Below are positions 6,441-39,496 of a stretch of DNA of 64,000 nucleotides, piece after piece (positions within the stretch are counted from its first letter, which is position 1; each line of letters opens with the position of its first letter). The stretch is from Pseudohalioglobus sediminis (GTDB lineage Bacteria; Pseudomonadota; Gammaproteobacteria; Pseudomonadales; Halieaceae). Where the stretch lies: NCBI RefSeq assembly GCF_008370495.1, contig NZ_VTUX01000003.1, positions 248,001-312,000 of the forward strand. The letters run 5' to 3'. Under the pieces are notes generated by a model, which was not told where the DNA came from, made no database searches, and worked only from the letters and a program-made list of their open reading frames with translations. The position numbers and the translations under genes are program-made.

Positions 6441-8750
6441 ATGAAACGCGTCGTCAGTATCAGTCTGGGACCCGGTGACCTGGATGTAAGCTTCAGGAAC
6501 CGCTTTCTCGGCGAGACCTTTGCAGTAACGCGTATCGGCACGGACAAGGACCAGGACCGGGCGGCCACCCTGGTGCAAGAACATCGCGATCGCGTTGACG
6601 CCCTCGGCCTGGGCATGGTCCGCGAGCACTACACCGTGGGTACGGATCGTTTCATCCAGCCGGCAACAAGGAAACTGGAAGCCCTTGCCGGGCAGACATC
6701 CATCACCACAGGCGCGAGGCTGCGCGAGATCGTGCAGGAATGGACCCTGCGCTCGGCCATGCTGGAACTGGGCAATATCTTTAACAACGCCAAGGTGCTG
6801 TTTCTCTCCGGCACACTCAATTACCGTCTCGCCTCGGTGCTGGCCGAATACACGGACAACCTCACTTTCGCCGACCCGGTAGCGCAGTTTGGCCTGCCCA
6901 ACCTGCTGCACTCACTGCGTGCGCTGGAGCGCTACGCCAGCGGCAGCCATCCGATTTTGCGCCTGGATGGCGGCAAGGACCGCATTCCCTCAGTGGCGCC
7001 TTTCACGTTCTTCAATCACCTCGTGTTACGCCGGGCAGTCAGGGACGCGCACGTCGTGGTCGCCCCCTACGAGCAGCTGCAGCACTACGGTAAACGCGAA
7101 CTTGAGGGCAAGACCGTTATCACCTCCACGGTGTCTGATGAACGCCTGGCGGAATTGCGCGACAAAGGCGTCAGGCTGGTACTGGACTGCAGCATACAGC
7201 CGTTCAAACACACTGTCGGGCTGAACGTCATTGATGCCATGATCATCGCAGCGCTGGACAAACCGGCTACAGAGATCAGTCATGACGACTACCTGGAGAT
7301 TTTCACTGACCTGGAACTGAAACCGCGATTGCTTTACCCCACACCGGGGCGCAAGCACATCAATCGCTTTGCCTTTGTCATCCATCCCCTGTCGCAGCAA
7401 TATCTAAAGCATCTCAAGCCCCTGGAAATGCTGTCGCGGGTGTCGCCGCAGCCGGTAATGGACCTGGTGGAAAAGGCCGTTGCCTACACCCCGCCGTTCG
7501 TCTACAGCAAAGTTGAGGGCATTCGCTCACCCGATGGGGTGGAAGCCGAAGGCTGGCTCATCATCGTGGGCGGCACGCCAAAGGAAATCATGAGCCACAC
7601 GCCGGAGTTCACCTACCGTCGCCTGCTGGCTGCTGCGGACATCGCCAAGGATCTCGGTGCACAGATAATGGGTCTGGGCGCCTTTACCAAGGTGGTTGGC
7701 GATGCCGGCGTTACCGTGGCCAAGCGCGCGCCGCTGCCGATCACCACGGGTAACAGTTACAGCGCCTCCGGGGCACTGTGGGCCGCGCATGACGCGGTAC
7801 AGCGCCTTGGCCTGGTGAAACTGGAAAAGGGCAAGAAAGTGCAGGGCAAGGCCATGGTGGTTGGCGCCACCGGAGCCATTGGCGCGGCCTGTGCCCGACT
7901 GCTGGCCAGGACCGCGGAGGAACTGCACCTGGTATCACCGGAGGCGGCCAAACTGTTGATACTGGAGAAGTCGATTCTGCGGGAATCTCCCGGCGTGAAG
8001 CTGGTGCTGTCTTCCTACGCCGATTCCGATGCCAGTATCGGCGACATGGACATGATCGTCACCGCCACCTCCGGTGCGGGCAAGAAAATTCTCGACATCA
8101 TGCAGGTCAAGCCGGGCTGCGTCATCACAGATGTGGCCCGCCCTCTCGACCTCTCCCCCGAGGACGTGGCCAAGCGCCCGGATGTACTGGTTATAGAGTC
8201 CGGCGAAATCGCGCTGCCGGGTGACATCAATATGAAGTCAATCGGCTTCGACGACCGCAATGTGGTCTACGCCTGCCTGGCCGAGACCATTGTGCTTGCC
8301 CTCGAGGGCCGTTTCGAGAACTTTACCCTGGGTCGCAACCTGGAGTGGGAAAAAGTACACGAAATATACAAACTGGGACTCAAGCACGGCATGCAGCTGG
8401 CCGCGATCTCCGGCGTCAATGGCGTTTACTCGGACGCCGATATCGCCGCCGTACGCAAACGTGCCCTGACAGCGCGCAAGCAAATTGCATCAACTGACAA
8501 AGCTTCCGGGAAAACCAGCTCACGGTCGGGCAAATCGCGCAAAGGCAAGTCCCAGCCCGGCAAGTCCGCGGCGCGCAGATCCCCAGCCGGGAAGTCTCGC
8601 ACCACCGATTCAAAGCGAGGTAAAAGCGCAGGCAGAAAAGGCGGGGCAAGTCAGTCGTCCACGCGGTCGTCTTCCCAGCGCAAGTCCGGCACAGGCGCAT
8701 CACCAAAAAAAGCCTCTCGCGGCTCCCGCTCCGGAGGCAAGACGCGCTGA
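6441..8750 (+). CDS. Acyl-ACP-reductase-like dehydrogenase with novel N-terminal domain and Lys/Ser-rich tail
   Basis: 769 residues from the ATG at 6441, chosen over an upstream TTG at 6411 because GGAG lies 8 bases before it. Residues ~380-690 resemble cyanobacterial long-chain acyl-ACP reductase: a Rossmann motif VVGATGAIG (475-481), ITTGNSYSA, a Cys at 612 in the VYACLAETI context that matches the acyl-thioester cysteine of that enzyme, and NFTLGRN near the end. Residues 1-~370 match nothing I recognise. Residues ~695-769 are a low-complexity tail of repeated GKS/SRS units. It lies before a fatty acyl-CoA reductase and wax synthases, so fatty aldehyde formation for wax esters is the best inference. 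Confidence 0.72.
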   Translation: MKRVVSISLGPGDLDVSFRNRFLGETFAVTRIGTDKDQDRAATLVQEHRDRVDALGLGMVREHYTVGTDRFIQPATRKLEALAGQTSITTGARLREIVQEWTLRSAMLELGNIFNNAKVLFLSGTLNYRLASVLAEYTDNLTFADPVAQFGLPNLLHSLRALERYASGSHPILRLDGGKDRIPSVAPFTFFNHLVLRRAVRDAHVVVAPYEQLQHYGKRELEGKTVITSTVSDERLAELRDKGVRLVLDCSIQPFKHTVGLNVIDAMIIAALDKPATEISHDDYLEIFTDLELKPRLLYPTPGRKHINRFAFVIHPLSQQYLKHLKPLEMLSRVSPQPVMDLVEKAVAYTPPFVYSKVEGIRSPDGVEAEGWLIIVGGTPKEIMSHTPEFTYRRLLAAADIAKDLGAQIMGLGAFTKVVGDAGVTVAKRAPLPITTGNSYSASGALWAAHDAVQRLGLVKLEKGKKVQGKAMVVGATGAIGAACARLLARTAEELHLVSPEAAKLLILEKSILRESPGVKLVLSSYADSDASIGDMDMIVTATSGAGKKILDIMQVKPGCVITDVARPLDLSPEDVAKRPDVLVIESGEIALPGDINMKSIGFDDRNVVYACLAETIVLALEGRFENFTLGRNLEWEKVHEIYKLGLKHGMQLAAISGVNGVYSDADIAAVRKRALTARKQIASTDKASGKTSSRSGKSRKGKSQPGKSAARRSPAGKSRTTDSKRGKSAGRKGGASQSSTRSSSQRKSGTGASPKKASRGSRSGGKTR

Positions 8751-8776
8751 AATATGCTGTACTAAGCTAACCTTTC

Positions 8777-8795
8777 GGCGCTACATTGTAGCGCC
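8777..8795 (+). other. Intercistronic hairpin
   Basis: Perfect 8-bp arms GGCGCTAC and GTAGCGCC around a 3-base loop, between the reductase-like gene and the fatty acyl-CoA reductase. There is no long T-run, so it may act as an mRNA-processing or attenuating stem rather than a full terminator. Confidence 0.45.
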
Positions 8796-8827
8796 ATGCT
8801 TTCTTGAACCTGCATACGAGGATAACA

Positions 8828-10888
8828 ATGAAATACTTCGTCACTGGCGGCACCGGCTTCATAGGCCGTTTCCTGGTCCCCAAACTGCTCGATCGCGGCG
8901 GCACGGTCTATTTGCTGGTGAGACCCAGCTCAATGGCCAAGGTGGACGGTTTGCGCGAACTCTGGGGCGCAGACCGGCGCCAGGTCGTGGCCGTGGAGGG
9001 CGACCTCAGTAAAAACAAGCTGGGTGTGAAGCCTTCATGGATCAAGCAACACGCGGGCAAGATTGATCATTTCTTCCACCTCGCCGCCATCTACGACATG
9101 AAGGCCGACGCCGAAAGCCAGCGCATCAGCAACGTCAATGGCACTGCCCAGGCCATCGCCCTGTCGAAGGCGCTCAAGGCCGGCTGTTTTCACCAGGTCT
9201 CTTCCATCGCGGCCGCCGGGCTGTACAAGGGCACATTCACGGAAGACATGTTCGAGGAAGCGGGTGACATGGAACACCCCTACTTCCTGACCAAGCACGA
9301 ATCCGAGGGCCTGGTACGCAAGGAAAAGCGCATGAAGTGGCGCATCTATCGGCCGGGAATGGTCGTTGGCCACTCCGAGACCGGCGAGATGGATAAGGTC
9401 GACGGCCCCTATTACTTCTTCGACATGCTGAAGAATCTCAGCTCGGTCACTCCCCGGGGCTTTCCGCTACTGTTGAACAAGGCCGGCCTGCTCAATATCG
9501 TGCCCGTGGACTACGTGGTCGATGCTATCGACTATCTCGCCCACCTGCCCGAGCAGGACAACGAGTGCTTTTTCATCACCGACCCCGATGGCATCCGCGT
9601 TGGCGACCTGCTGCGCATCATGATGCGCGTTGCCGGCGGCCCGAATCTCAAGGCAATCGACGTTGGGGTACTGGATACCGCCACACAACTCGCCGGGGAA
9701 GGCATCAGCCGGGTGCCACCGCTGAAATCGCTGGGCGAAAAAGCCATTTCCCGCCTCGGCATACCACCCCAGGTGGTCGGCTATATCAATTACCCAACCC
9801 GTTTTGACTCCACCAAGACACGCAAACTGCTTGCCGGCGGTGACATAGCCTGCCCGCCGTTTGAGGACTACGCCGAGGTCCTGTGGGACTACTGGCTGAA
9901 CTTCCTGCGCCCGGACAAGGATAACCTGATACGCGAGGTGGACGGTCTGTTCAATGAGATGATCGGGCGCCCGAAGCTGTCGGCGCTGCGCCGCAAGGTG
10001 CGCGGCAAGGTGGCGGTGGTTACCGGAGCCACCAGCGGCATCGGTAAAGAGGTGGCGTTACGCCTGGCGCGCGCTGATGCAACCGTAATCCTGGTCGCAA
10101 GAACCGTGGAAAAGCTCGACGAGACGCTGGCGGAAATTGCCGAAAACGGTGGCAAGGCGCAGGCCTACTCCTGTGACGTGTCGCAGGAAAAGGACTGCCA
10201 CAAACTGGTCCGGGATGTGCTCAAGGATCACGGCCGTGTCGATATCCTGATCAACAATGCCGGGCGCTCCATCCGCCGCTCGGTGCGCTACAGTTACGAC
10301 CGCTTCCATGATTTCGAACGCACCATGGAACTCAACTACTACGGCGCACTGCGATTGATCCTGGGCTTCCTCCCCCCCATGGAAGAGCAGGAGGGTGGAC
10401 ATATCATCAATATTTCGTCCATCGGCGTGCTCACCAGCCCGCCGAGATTCTCCGCCTACGTGGCCTCCAAGGCCGCCCTGGATGCATTCAGCCTCTGTGC
10501 CGCACCGGAGTTCGCCGCGCAGAACGTGTCCTTCACCACGATCCATATGCCACTGGTGCGCACCCCCATGATTGCCCCCACCAGCCTGTACAAGGCATTC
10601 CCCACGCTGTCGCCGGAGCAGGCTCGCGACCTGGTAATGAAGGCTATCATTGCCAAACCCAAGCGCCTCTCGACCGGGTTAGGCGTGACCGGTGCAGTAG
10701 CGCAGGCAACCATTCCCAGTGTGACCGAGGCGTTCCTGGCGCAGGCCTACGACCTGTTCCCGGACTCCGCTGCAGCCAGGGGACTGAGCGAGGCCGAGGC
10801 GGCGAAGGAGCGGGAAAACGTACCCTCCTCCAAACTGGCCCTGGCACAACGCATGTTCGCGCAGATTATGCGTGGCGTGCACTGGTAA
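8828..10888 (+). CDS. Alcohol-forming fatty acyl-CoA reductase (two-domain)
   Basis: 686 residues from ATG 8828 (GAGG 6 bases upstream; a TTG at 8804 is less likely). The N-terminal reductase begins with GGTGFIGRFL (residues 7-16) and reduces acyl-CoA to aldehyde; a second SDR domain starts at about residue 390 with TGATSGIG (399-406), NNAGRSIRR and the catalytic YVASK (Y544/K548), reducing aldehyde to alcohol. Order, length and motifs such as GHSETGEMDKVDGPYYFF and the IMRGVHW end match the Marinobacter enzyme that makes fatty alcohols directly. It supplies alcohol to the wax synthase encoded 28 bp downstream and probably shares its transcript. Confidence 0.93.
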   Translation: MKYFVTGGTGFIGRFLVPKLLDRGGTVYLLVRPSSMAKVDGLRELWGADRRQVVAVEGDLSKNKLGVKPSWIKQHAGKIDHFFHLAAIYDMKADAESQRISNVNGTAQAIALSKALKAGCFHQVSSIAAAGLYKGTFTEDMFEEAGDMEHPYFLTKHESEGLVRKEKRMKWRIYRPGMVVGHSETGEMDKVDGPYYFFDMLKNLSSVTPRGFPLLLNKAGLLNIVPVDYVVDAIDYLAHLPEQDNECFFITDPDGIRVGDLLRIMMRVAGGPNLKAIDVGVLDTATQLAGEGISRVPPLKSLGEKAISRLGIPPQVVGYINYPTRFDSTKTRKLLAGGDIACPPFEDYAEVLWDYWLNFLRPDKDNLIREVDGLFNEMIGRPKLSALRRKVRGKVAVVTGATSGIGKEVALRLARADATVILVARTVEKLDETLAEIAENGGKAQAYSCDVSQEKDCHKLVRDVLKDHGRVDILINNAGRSIRRSVRYSYDRFHDFERTMELNYYGALRLILGFLPPMEEQEGGHIINISSIGVLTSPPRFSAYVASKAALDAFSLCAAPEFAAQNVSFTTIHMPLVRTPMIAPTSLYKAFPTLSPEQARDLVMKAIIAKPKRLSTGLGVTGAVAQATIPSVTEAFLAQAYDLFPDSAAARGLSEAEAAKERENVPSSKLALAQRMFAQIMRGVHW

Positions 10889-10916
10889 CACTGGTGGCAC
10901 CGGCCGGGAGCAAGCT

Positions 10917-12506
10917 ATGCGACAGCTAGGCGTTCTGGACAAGGGGTTCCTGATCGCGGAGAAGCGGGAGACGCCGATGCACGTGGGGGGCGTCAGCCTC
11001 TACACGCTGCCCGATGGCGCCGACGAACAGGCCTTTCTGCATGACCTGGCAGCCAACCTGCGGAATGCAGACACCCTGTTGCCGCCGTTCGGCGATCGCC
11101 TGAAAACCGGCCTCCTCGGCCTGACCGGGGCGACGTACTGGGAACCAGACCCGTCGCTGGACCTGGATTACCATGTGCGTCACTCCGCCCTGCCGAAGCC
11201 GGGCCGCTACCGGGAACTGTTCACGCTGGTCTCCCGCCTGCACGGCACCCTGCTGGACCGGCAACGCCCGCTGTGGGAAATACACCTGATCGAGGGTCTG
11301 GGCAATAGGCAGTTTGCGGTCTACACCAAAACCCACCACGCCGCCGTCGACGGCGCGCGATCTGTACATGTCTCCCGTTGCATGCTGTCAACTGACCCCG
11401 GTTTCGTGCGCGAGGAGTCGCCTCTGTCGCTGCAGGCCTGGAATGCCTACAAGGCGGGATTGAAAAGCGCCCCGGCCACGCCTCAACCCCGGTACAGTGA
11501 TACCAACCTGCGCAGGGTAAGCGACGCCATCAAGTTCAGTTTTGACAGTGGTGGCAGCATCGTCCATACAGTCAGCGGCCTGGCCCGGGCGCTGACCGGT
11601 CGCGACGAGCACCTCTACCTGCCTCACCTGTCGGTACCACGCACCTCAATCAACACCTCAGTCGATGGCGCACGCCGCTTTGTGGCGCAGTCCTGGCCCT
11701 TCGCTCGCATCAAGGCCGTCGCCGTGGCCTACGATGGCACGTTCAATGATGCGATTCTGGCCATGTGTTCCGGCGCACTGCGCAAGTACCTGCAGTTGCA
11801 TGCGGAACTGCCGGAAACGTCACTGAAAGCCATGGTGCCGGTGTCGCTGCGCCGGGAGGGTGATGTCGAAGCCGGCAATGCCGTCACTGCAATCAGCGCA
11901 GACCTCGCCACCCATATCCCGGACCCCGGTCGCCGTTTCAGCGCCATCAAGGCATCCATGCGCGCAGGCAAGGAATATTTCGGCGCCATGTCACCCAGGG
12001 AAGCGGAACTGTTTACCCTGTTGATGCAGACGCCGTCCTTACTGATGCAGCCCCTCGGGCTGATCTCCCGACTGCCACCCTATAACACGGTAATCTCCAA
12101 TGTCCCCGGCATGAGCGAAACCATGTACTGGAATGGTGCGCGCATGGACGGTTCTTATCCGATGTCCATCGTCACAGACGGTATCTCGCTGAATATCACC
12201 CTGGTGACCTACGCCGAGAACGTCGACTTTGGCATTATCGCCTGCCGACGTTCCGTGCCACAGGTGCAGCGGATGATCGACTATATGGAAGATGCGCTGG
12301 TCGAATTGGAAGACGCTGCCGGTCTCAGCACCCCGGCGGCAACACGGACTGGCAGTAAACGCCGCAAGGTTGCGCCTGCGAAGCCAAAGAAAAGCGGCGC
12401 AGCCGGCACGAATGCCGGCACAAAGCCAAAACCAAGAACTAAATCAAAAGCCAAAACCAAAGCCAGGCCGAAAGCGAAGCCGGCAACAACTGGCAGGAAA
12501 CGCTAG
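10917..12506 (+). CDS. Wax ester synthase / diacylglycerol acyltransferase with basic C-terminal tail
   Basis: 529 residues from ATG 10917 (GGGAG 6 bases before). The catalytic HHxxxDG is HHAAVDG at residues 140-146; PLWEIHLIEGL and the later NVPG segment are family hallmarks. It esterifies fatty alcohol (from the upstream reductase) or diacylglycerol with acyl-CoA at the membrane or lipid-body surface. The last ~50 residues are an unusual Lys/Pro/Thr/Ala-rich tail, not part of the usual ~460-residue enzyme, resembling in composition the tail of the protein at 6441. Its stop TAG shares the palindrome CTAG with the stop of the convergent second wax synthase. Confidence 0.92.
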   Translation: MRQLGVLDKGFLIAEKRETPMHVGGVSLYTLPDGADEQAFLHDLAANLRNADTLLPPFGDRLKTGLLGLTGATYWEPDPSLDLDYHVRHSALPKPGRYRELFTLVSRLHGTLLDRQRPLWEIHLIEGLGNRQFAVYTKTHHAAVDGARSVHVSRCMLSTDPGFVREESPLSLQAWNAYKAGLKSAPATPQPRYSDTNLRRVSDAIKFSFDSGGSIVHTVSGLARALTGRDEHLYLPHLSVPRTSINTSVDGARRFVAQSWPFARIKAVAVAYDGTFNDAILAMCSGALRKYLQLHAELPETSLKAMVPVSLRREGDVEAGNAVTAISADLATHIPDPGRRFSAIKASMRAGKEYFGAMSPREAELFTLLMQTPSLLMQPLGLISRLPPYNTVISNVPGMSETMYWNGARMDGSYPMSIVTDGISLNITLVTYAENVDFGIIACRRSVPQVQRMIDYMEDALVELEDAAGLSTPAATRTGSKRRKVAPAKPKKSGAAGTNAGTKPKPRTKSKAKTKARPKAKPATTGRKR

Positions 12507-13873
12507 GCACTCGCTCCTACCGCGTCACGCACCTCGGCGTAACTGGACTTGATCAGCGCACCGAGACTCTCGATACCGGGCTGGTCCCGAGGGCAACTGG
12601 CAATGGCGAAACACAGCTTGTTGACGTGACTGACCACCGTGATATTCAAACCCATCGCGTCGGTAACGATGGACAACGGGTACAGCGCTTCCAGCTCTGC
12701 GCCCTCGAGATACAGCTTGCGCGGTGAGCCGGGAACATTGGAAAAAATCGCGTTGGTGGCCGGCCGCACCCGGGTGGCATTACCGGTCATGGTAAGCAGT
12801 ATGGTCGGCGCCATAATCAGCGCGTAGAAATCCTCCGCAGCAGTTACCGACACGCTGTTCAACTCTTTCTTGGCCGACGAGGTAACCTTGATGATACGCC
12901 GCAACCGTTTCAGGGCATCGGGCTCCTGGGTAAAAAACGGGCACATGATATAACTGAGCTTGTTGCCCAGATCATCGTCCGAGGACTTCAGTGACACCGG
13001 CATCCCTGCTACCAGGGAGGCCCGCGGCAGGGCATCGTGCTCTTGCAGGTAGTGACGCAGCGCTCCGCCACAGACTGCGAGCAAAACATCATTAACCGAG
13101 CCACCCGCCACGGCGGCAATTCTCTTCACCTGACGCAAAGGCAGATCACAGATCACCAGTGAACGCCGCGAATCCAGCTCCGTGTTGAACAGGGATCTGG
13201 GAGAGGTAAATGGCAAACGCATGGCGTCGCCCTTGCCGCGCAGTGCGTCCATGCCCATATGCGCCATCAGGCGCGACAGCTCCGGTATCGCCCGGTACTG
13301 CCTGGCCAGGCCCTGGCCCATGTCACCGATGCGAGCGAGCAGGCTGTGGCTATGACTACGGTGCAGGGGGAGATCGTTATCAAACGTAAGTCGTCCCCCG
13401 GGTGTTTCGCAAAATAAACCCTGCAACATTTTCATGGCGCCCACGCCATCCACCAGCGCGTGGTGAACCTTGCAGTAGATGGCGAAACGATCGCGCGGCA
13501 GGCCCTCAATAAGATGAATTTCCCACAGCGGACGGCCTCGATCGAGGGGCCGCTCGTGTGCTCGGGTCACCAGTTGCATCAGGTCGCTCATGCGGCCCGG
13601 CGCCGGTAAAGCATAGTGGTACACATGGCGCTCAGGGACATAGTCACTTGCAGCCACCCAACCGGCATCACCGATATTTTCCGGCTCGCTGAGCTGTTTA
13701 TTGAATACGGGCCAGAGTTCATTCAGGCGCCCGCACTTTTCTACCAGCCTGCGCATGTAATTGCGCGGTGCGTCATCCGGGAGTTTCAAAATCATCAGGC
13801 CGGCCACGTGGAACGGGCAATGGGGAGACTCGAGCTTGAGAAAACCCGCATCCTGGGAACTCAGTTTTTCCAT
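12503..13873 (-). CDS. Second wax ester synthase / diacylglycerol acyltransferase
   Basis: 456 residues from the ATG at 13873; AAGGAG lies 6 bases before it, and an in-frame TTG two codons earlier is less well placed. HHALVDG at residues 137-143 is the active site, PLWEIHLIEGL precedes it and SNVPGSPRKLYL follows near residue 360. It has normal family length and no basic tail. It is a diverged paralog of the convergent enzyme at 10917; the two coding regions overlap by 4 bases at their stops. The pair may divide wax-ester and triacylglycerol synthesis, but specificity is not readable from the sequence. Confidence 0.92.
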   Translation of the reverse strand: MEKLSSQDAGFLKLESPHCPFHVAGLMILKLPDDAPRNYMRRLVEKCGRLNELWPVFNKQLSEPENIGDAGWVAASDYVPERHVYHYALPAPGRMSDLMQLVTRAHERPLDRGRPLWEIHLIEGLPRDRFAIYCKVHHALVDGVGAMKMLQGLFCETPGGRLTFDNDLPLHRSHSHSLLARIGDMGQGLARQYRAIPELSRLMAHMGMDALRGKGDAMRLPFTSPRSLFNTELDSRRSLVICDLPLRQVKRIAAVAGGSVNDVLLAVCGGALRHYLQEHDALPRASLVAGMPVSLKSSDDDLGNKLSYIMCPFFTQEPDALKRLRRIIKVTSSAKKELNSVSVTAAEDFYALIMAPTILLTMTGNATRVRPATNAIFSNVPGSPRKLYLEGAELEALYPLSIVTDAMGLNITVVSHVNKLCFAIASCPRDQPGIESLGALIKSSYAEVRDAVGASA

Positions 13874-13956
13874 CGTCAACTCCTTTCTGCTGGCAGCAAA
13901 CCTAACGCTATCTGGCGCCAGGGTGTAGCGAATGGATCAAGATTCAAGCAACAAAA

Positions 13957-37869: not shown

Positions 37870-39165
37870 TCAATTCGCCTCTAGCTCAGCCCGCAATGCA
37901 GCCAGGATTGCATCCAGCGTCTCCGCTGACAGGAATACGTCAAGATCAATCTCGACGCCAAATTTTTCACAGGAATCCTCCAGCAGCGCCACGGCCGACA
38001 GTGAATCACCGCCCATATCCACAAAATTATCCGCCCCCTGGACGGATGCAAGCTGCAGTTCGCGCGCGACCGCATCCAGGAACCAATCCTCTAATGCCGA
38101 CACCGTCTCCTGGTTCTGAACTGCCGTTGCTAAACCACTCGCGTTTACATTGACGCTGGTCAACGGCTCACTTTTCGGCAGTTCGAGTGCGTACCCGCAA
38201 GCAGACCAGGAACCCGGGTCCGCCATCGCGGCAAACACCTTGCGCTCTCCAGAGTAGGCCTCCCTGCCGTGAGCATAGAGCAGGTTGTCCAGCATCAACA
38301 CATCGCCCGCCTGCCATTCGAACAGGGTGGTTGCGCCCTCGTAGGCTTGCCGGATGCTGCCCATGGTGTCATCGTCAATAGGCTGCCCATTGCCATAGTA
38401 GGTATTGTGCGGCAGGTTTTCTTCGCCGTGCTGGCGCAACAGTACATCCCGGAGGGACTGATCCAGGGAACTCACGTGCAGCGCCATGGCGTGGTTAAAC
38501 CAGACTGTTTCATTGGTCAGCGGGTGCCGCAGGCTAGCCGGGCGGGTCTGGATGGTTCTCAGGCGGTCCTGGTCCAGCCAGGTAAACTGTATCGCGGCCT
38601 CGGTACAGTATTGCTCGAGCTCCTCCCTGGTCTCGACCTGGAAGACATCTCGCCAATCCATGCCCACGCCCTCCCCGAAGTTGCGGACGTACATCACCCC
38701 ATGCTCTTCGAAGGGTGCGCGCAGTTCCGCTGGCAGGGTCTGGTAAATCTTGCGGCTGTCGGCAATCGGGGTACGCCCGCCCTGTGCAGCCGCTTTCTGG
38801 CAATAGAAGAATATCTTTCCCGGCCATCTCGAGGTGAAGGAGCTCTCGTTATGCAGCTGGATCCTGAACCCACTCGGCGTGTCCGTGGAGGTATAAACCT
38901 TACCTGCCACCAGGCTGCGCTTACTCGCCCGATCCTTGTAATCCATCCACTTCTCAACCAACGCACCGGTAAAGGCTTCAAAATCCTGCGCACTGCGTAT
39001 CGCAAAGCCACGAAAAAGAATGGCCCCGTGTGCAGACAGTTCCTGCAGCAGTTCTTCCCGATTCGCCGCCAGCAGTTCATGCCATTCCTGACCAGCAGCG
39101 GGGCACACCTGCAGTGGTCCCCCCGGCGTGGCCGTGTCCAGCGCGCACATATTCAGATCACTCAT
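37870..39165 (-). CDS. TauD/TfdA-type dioxygenase fused to an acyl/peptidyl carrier domain
   Basis: 431 residues. Residues ~20-325 form a clavaminate-synthase-like TauD domain: metal ligands HNE (H105, E107) in QLHNESSF and His299 in LLYAHGREAY, plus RWPGKIFFYC. Residues ~352-431 are a carrier domain with the phosphopantetheine site GGDSLS (Ser388). The dioxygenase domain resembles free-standing hydroxylases such as SyrP that act on carrier-bound amino acids, so here the substrate may be tethered to its own carrier. No adenylation or condensation gene is in the window. It reads toward the unknown gene at 36792. Confidence 0.85.
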   Translation of the reverse strand: MSDLNMCALDTATPGGPLQVCPAAGQEWHELLAANREELLQELSAHGAILFRGFAIRSAQDFEAFTGALVEKWMDYKDRASKRSLVAGKVYTSTDTPSGFRIQLHNESSFTSRWPGKIFFYCQKAAAQGGRTPIADSRKIYQTLPAELRAPFEEHGVMYVRNFGEGVGMDWRDVFQVETREELEQYCTEAAIQFTWLDQDRLRTIQTRPASLRHPLTNETVWFNHAMALHVSSLDQSLRDVLLRQHGEENLPHNTYYGNGQPIDDDTMGSIRQAYEGATTLFEWQAGDVLMLDNLLYAHGREAYSGERKVFAAMADPGSWSACGYALELPKSEPLTSVNVNASGLATAVQNQETVSALEDWFLDAVARELQLASVQGADNFVDMGGDSLSAVALLEDSCEKFGVEIDLDVFLSAETLDAILAALRAELEAN

Positions 39166-39496
39166 TTATCAAGCACCTGCTATTTCGCCAGTCACTCTGG
39201 CTCCGTTCGTTGTCTTTCTACAATTACCATACATGACAAGGCAGTCCAGACTTTTCTGGACTTGGCAGCAGTTAACGACGTGCTACGCTGGACACCGTGG
39301 TTCCGCGATTGCGGTACTGATGCGAAAATTCACCACCTGGCTCCGTGAGCCAATATACTCTGGCGTCTAGCCCGGGCTTTGCCGGTCGCGGTGACCGTCG
39401 AATTTGGATCCGCTGCGCGTCAAGCCCTGCACGAAACGAGACAGTTTCAAACGGCACAATGGCGGAACCAGATACGCAGCAAGGGGTTGTAGACAC
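39166..39496. other. Divergent promoter region
   Basis: About 330 bases between the dioxygenase-carrier gene (minus) and an acyl-CoA dehydrogenase (plus). It contains one notable 8-bp inverted repeat (see 39243-39262) and no open frame with family resemblance. Confidence 0.5.
39243..39262. promoter_or_regulatory. Inverted repeat in the divergent promoter
   Basis: AGTCCAGA and TCTGGACT separated by CTTT, perfect over 8 bases, about 80 bases before the carrier-dioxygenase start. Candidate operator. Confidence 0.4.

Follow-up and report, generated by a model that had tools for sequence, protein, structure and literature searches.

Hydroxylation of carrier-bound substrates is usually carried out by a separate enzyme that recognises an NRPS carrier, or by a domain located within the NRPS. 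A dedicated carrier can also be fused to an adenylation (A) domain, as in the A-T didomain units, e.g. NovH/NovI, where a P450 beta-hydroxylates an amino acid that is held outside a full NRPS. TauD enzymes hydroxylate aspartate while it is tethered to a T domain, and the SyrP-like TauD beta-hydroxylases and the TauD domains of siderophore NRPSs are discrete enzymes or domains in an NRPS that contains A and condensation (C) domains (PMC8949500; PMC7100376). Charging in trans of a T domain that lacks an A domain has been described as well: CmnI of capreomycin carries such a T domain and is a member of a complete NRPS pathway with a known loader (PMC12400406).

In the window, which is the complete 64-kb stretch of DNA analysed here, a single open reading frame with an ATG start (open reading frame listing) encodes a predicted TauD dioxygenase fused to a putative carrier (Table 1). 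The protein shares the fold, the HxE...H motif and the NRPS-associated lineage with the SyrP-like enzymes and the siderophore TauD domains, and action on a carrier-bound amino acid is expected as for these enzymes; however, its carrier comes without A or C domain. As in NovH/NovI, a dedicated carrier would hold the amino acid outside a full NRPS, but there it is joined to the A domain, whereas here it is joined to a 2-oxoglutarate oxygenase. Like CmnI the protein has a T domain unaccompanied by an A domain, but no NRPS surrounds it. On a plasmid of Streptomyces sp. NBC_00963 (L064), genes for a TauD protein, a phosphopantetheine-binding protein and an AMP-binding protein lie in a row, flanked by MbtH and P450 genes. 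TauD and carrier functions are found there side by side and in the same order as in the fusion, but they are encoded by separate genes followed directly by the adenylating enzyme, and the TauD protein (34% identical) falls outside the clade of the fused domains. This plasmid locus represents a split form of the fusion's logic and shows that such functions do occur together outside large NRPSs. Carrier-dependent TauD hydroxylases are known; new here are the fused-in carrier, without an assembly line, and the conserved unannotated partner that accompanies it.

Table 1. Position in the window of the fusion gene, its two domains, the convergent partner gene and the partner paralogue.
Feature	Position	Strand	Basis
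TauD dioxygenase with C-terminal carrier (predicted), fusion of 431 aa	37870..39165	-	Open reading frame, Pfam, full-length fused homologue in L019
TauD/TfdA domain, residues 26-311	38233..39090	-	Pfam, conservation across 34 homologues
Putative phosphopantetheine-binding carrier, residues 360-424, GGDSL with Ser388	37894..38088	-	Pfam, conserved Ser in L019
Unannotated partner, 350 aa	36792..37844	+	Convergent with the fusion, 25-bp gap; homologue placed alike in L019
Partner paralogue, 348 aa	16420..17466	+	Found by searching the genome with an alignment of the partner; similar to the partner in phmmer (E 2.5e-23)

The first-pass annotation had described a dioxygenase followed by a complete carrier with Ser388 in GGDSL, and Pfam bears this out. 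The TauD profile PF02668 is matched over positions 17-264 of 267 (E 9.4e-47, 160.6 bits, cut-off 27) and the PP-binding profile PF00550 over its complete length (1-67 of 67, E 2.5e-10, 40.9 bits, cut-off 20.8). In the carrier search of the genome the fused carrier was located at C17:285894-286088. H105, E107 and H299, which we take to be the iron ligands, are kept in all 34 aligned homologues, and the presumed 2-oxoglutarate residues R308 and T132 are kept in 32 and 33 of them, respectively. The closest solved structures are At3g21360 (1y0z) and a TauD/TfdA-like protein (9yut), with E-values of about 1e-34. The N-terminal part is thus a predicted Fe(II)/2-oxoglutarate dioxygenase of the TauD/TfdA type (clavaminate-synthase-like), and the C-terminal part a putative phosphopantetheine carrier domain with Ser388 in a GGDS motif, which aligns with GGDSV in a fused homologue from a Pseudomonadales MAG (L019). 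The carrier matches NRPS-type models better than the fatty acid ACP, the match being weak. An AlphaFold2 model of the fusion calculated from two input sequences has a pLDDT of only 34.6 and shows no more than helices where those of a carrier are expected. The profile E-values and the conservation of the fusion in L019 exclude a chance origin. Two other readings of this stretch were discarded: a pair of overlapping genes in place of the fusion is ruled out by the single frame and the full-length homologue, and the antisense open reading frame 38269-39348 is ruled out as a real gene, since the profile matches and the homologue belong to the minus-strand frame.

A second genome has the fusion: L019 contains the only close relative found when 84,980 species genomes were scanned with a few exact peptide patterns, a method that detects close relatives only. 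The L019 homologue (422 aa) is 46% identical over 394 positions spanning both domains, and Pfam shows the same architecture of TauD and PP-binding. A profile search with the fusion alignment against 369 genomes of the class returned TauD homologues only and no further stand-alone fusion, and no one-gene fused homologue was present among 72,556 plasmid records or in phages. One place in the plasmid records covers 80% of the fusion query, with TauD and carrier encoded there by two adjacent genes. Since L019 was found and the class and plasmid searches gave no other one-gene fusion, the TauD-carrier fusion is rare yet not unique. A stand-alone fusion of this type was not found in the literature searched, mostly papers available without subscription. 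Both the fusion and the partner gene are missing from seven genomes of the same genus (genome search), and in at least one of them (L103) the conserved flanking acyl-CoA dehydrogenase gene is preceded by a saccharopine-dehydrogenase-like gene where the window has the fusion. GC3 is 0.69 for the fusion and 0.67 for the partner, compared to 0.70-0.77 for most neighbours. The distribution in the genus and the lower GC3 suggest that the two genes are an accessory and probably acquired unit.

To place the dioxygenase part, 34 TauD domains were compared in a maximum-likelihood tree, which has long branches and does not include the characterised SyrP. The two fused TauD domains form a clade of their own (support 100/99), which is nested in a clade of 12 members (support 99/97). 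Eight of the ten other members of the larger clade lie beside or inside NRPS genes; a ninth (L043) has an adjoining adenylation-like gene, and its genome carries an NRPS-embedded TauD at a distance of about 11 kb. In L059 the TauD domain is located within an NRPS. The tree places the fused TauD domains in the NRPS-associated (SyrP-like) lineage, which directly supports a hydroxylase of building blocks bound to a carrier; the core of the first-pass interpretation is reasonable. Because the fused clade sits in an almost wholly NRPS-associated clade, the fusion is best read as a putative tailoring hydroxylase whose substrate is bound to a carrier and is probably aminoacyl.

An unannotated gene lies tail-to-tail with the fusion in both genomes, an observation that was absent from the first-pass annotation. 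The homologue in L019 is also convergent with the fusion, with a gap of 40 bp (BLASTP E 7e-31), and the two partner proteins are 29-30% identical. No Pfam or NCBIfam model matched the partner family, Pfam giving chance-level matches at most for nine members; comparison of the partner with the PDB by profile and with viral predicted structures gave no match, and none was found on plasmids in the plasmid record search. The family is present in 9 of 391 genomes of the order, 2 of 369 of the class and 6 of 398 of the phylum; the window's own genome is part of all three counts. Since the family is rare and occupies the same position in both fusion genomes, adjacency by chance is unlikely.

An AlphaFold2 model of the partner calculated from three sequences has a mean pLDDT of 58.5, with the C-terminal part mostly at 70-90. 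The top 11 PDB structures matched by this moderate model in Foldseek are acyl- or acetyltransferases throughout, although insignificant (best E 0.38); the leading and likewise insignificant match is teicoplanin N-acyltransferase, a GNAT sugar N-acyltransferase that uses acyl-CoA. The R/QxxGxG/A pyrophosphate-binding motif is missing in eight of nine family members, the lone match being at an N-terminal position, and hhalign showed no similarity between the family and three GNAT proteins of the same genome. Conserved residues of the partner include H227, W266, D269 and R314. A GNAT-like acyltransferase is therefore a lead from modelling and not a result. Family members elsewhere are often located within surface-glycan or FkbH gene clusters. 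Polysaccharide deacetylase, sugar-transfer ATP-grasp, FkbH-type or glycosyltransferase genes accompany the family in L033, L034, L036, L037, L038 and L090. L036 also encodes an adjacent pair of 390-aa proteins (8705-9877 and 9917-11089) with an SGG/SGGVDS-like motif and without Pfam match, beside the sugar-transfer ATP-grasp gene. The paralogue in the window is 19 kb away from the partner, has a low GC content (0.55) and is not part of an obvious cluster; neither a TauD nor a carrier gene lies alongside.

The first-pass annotation had also noted that adenylation and condensation genes are missing nearby. This is correct for the window, in which no AMP-binding gene and no adenylation domain linked to the fusion was found, so that at the fusion locus T is present alone, without A and C domains; condensation domains are missing from the whole genome. 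It does not extend to the other components: the genome contains 33 AMP-binding matches (on this contig the closest lies about 40 kb off, at C17:327055), six carrier domains and two PPTase candidates (C16:391008 and C19:103114, the latter adjoining two carrier genes). The genome search it had proposed thus recovered the PPTases and AMP-binding proteins, together with one adenylation domain, the only one above the amino-acid adenylation cut-off (TIGR01733), at C16:441467. This domain has Asp at position 235, and the neighbouring genes encode its own carrier, a luciferase-like monooxygenase, a formyltransferase and GNAT proteins. The set (L040 10227-15908, G000:C16 at about 440-446 kb), made up of a free-standing adenylation enzyme, an 81-aa carrier, the monooxygenase, the formyltransferase and two GNATs, looks like an NRPS initiation module of the formylating type that is split into separate genes and has no condensation domain. 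Its Stachelhaus code DLMFICLIAK, read against a GrsA fragment that gave the known GrsA code, indicates no clear substrate. Further along (L041 7916-10888, G000:C16 at about 570 kb), genes for a carrier, an AMP-ligase without the amino-binding Asp and a GNAT lie in a row. Both other free-standing PCP-like carriers are therefore located near a GNAT gene, which weakly fits a transferase role for the partner. The L019 genome encodes the fused carrier, a 93-aa carrier and two carriers on one contig. In this MAG, which may be incomplete, no adenylation domain scored above the cut-off; AMP-binding ligases number about 30 in each of the two genomes.

We consider it somewhat probable that fusion and partner form a two-gene accessory unit, in which the hydroxylase-carrier processes a tethered group and the partner acts on the same intermediate. 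The observations underlying this proposal are the two domains and their catalytic residues, the conserved fusion and partner orientation, the TauD lineage, the PPTases and the remote adenylation domain. The fusion would combine a non-heme Fe(II)/2-oxoglutarate hydroxylase from the SyrP-like lineage with a T/PCP carrier of its own. S388 would be primed by a PPTase, and a free-standing adenylating enzyme from another locus would load the carrier in trans. Hydroxylation of the tethered group would follow on the fused carrier, either in cis or between copies of the protein; the TauD lineage suggests that this group is most likely an amino acid. The partner would most likely be an acyl or aminoacyl transferase that off-loads the intermediate onto an amine or another carrier. 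Several findings speak against parts of this scheme: the genome's sole true adenylation domain has its own neighbouring carrier, the possibly incomplete L019 MAG has none above the cut-off, no operon joins the fusion to a loader, and the transferase role of the partner is drawn from a moderate model with insignificant Foldseek matches, in a family that lacks the R/QxxGxG/A motif. More speculative, and in our view doubtful, is an extension in which the two proteins are a minimal pathway without assembly line and the partner represents a new transferase family that takes the hydroxylated group off the carrier and passes it directly to an amino sugar at the cell surface or to some other amine.

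Rather unlikely, but the best surviving alternative, is that the carrier holds an acyl group other than an amino acid (from a fatty, aryl or hydroxy acid), loaded by an acyl-AMP ligase or directly from acyl-CoA, hydroxylated by TauD and moved by the partner to an acceptor such as an amino sugar. The genome without condensation domain, the L019 genome without amino-acid adenylation domain above the cut-off and the abundant AMP-binding ligases in both genomes agree with such a unit, as do the frequent glycan or FkbH clusters around family members and the acyl-CoA-using sugar N-acyltransferase at the top of the Foldseek matches. However, the TauD lineage is NRPS-associated, and the GGDS carrier prefers, if weakly, NRPS-type models over the fatty acid ACP. 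That the partner is a mere neighbour, co-transferred and functionally unrelated, appears improbable to us. Convergent genes do not share an operon, and the paralogue in the window manages without TauD or carrier; against this, the divergence between the two partners points to an old association, and for a family found in a few per cent of the sampled genomes adjacency to the fusion in both genomes is hardly expected. Least probable is that TauD and T are what remained of an NRPS module after loss of A and C, now hydroxylating a free or CoA-bound substrate or decaying: the accessory nature of a fusion missing from seven same-genus genomes, the absence of NRPS genes from its surroundings and the known TauD domain inside the L059 NRPS would fit, but fusion, catalytic residues and carrier serine have been retained in two genomes at 46% identity, alongside the partner gene, which indicates selection on the whole unit.

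The conserved hydroxylase-carrier fusion offers a small expressible system for studying carrier recognition in cis, and its partner brings in a protein family that lacks annotation and for which a transferase role can be tested. Should the partner off-load the product, the two proteins would constitute an NRPS-free route by which another molecule receives a hydroxylated acyl or aminoacyl group. Elsewhere in the window, two convergent, overlapping wax ester synthase/DGAT genes (10872-12506 on the plus strand and 12503-13879 on the minus strand) adjoin the gene at 8804-10888, which encodes a fusion of fatty acyl-CoA reductase-like and SDR parts.
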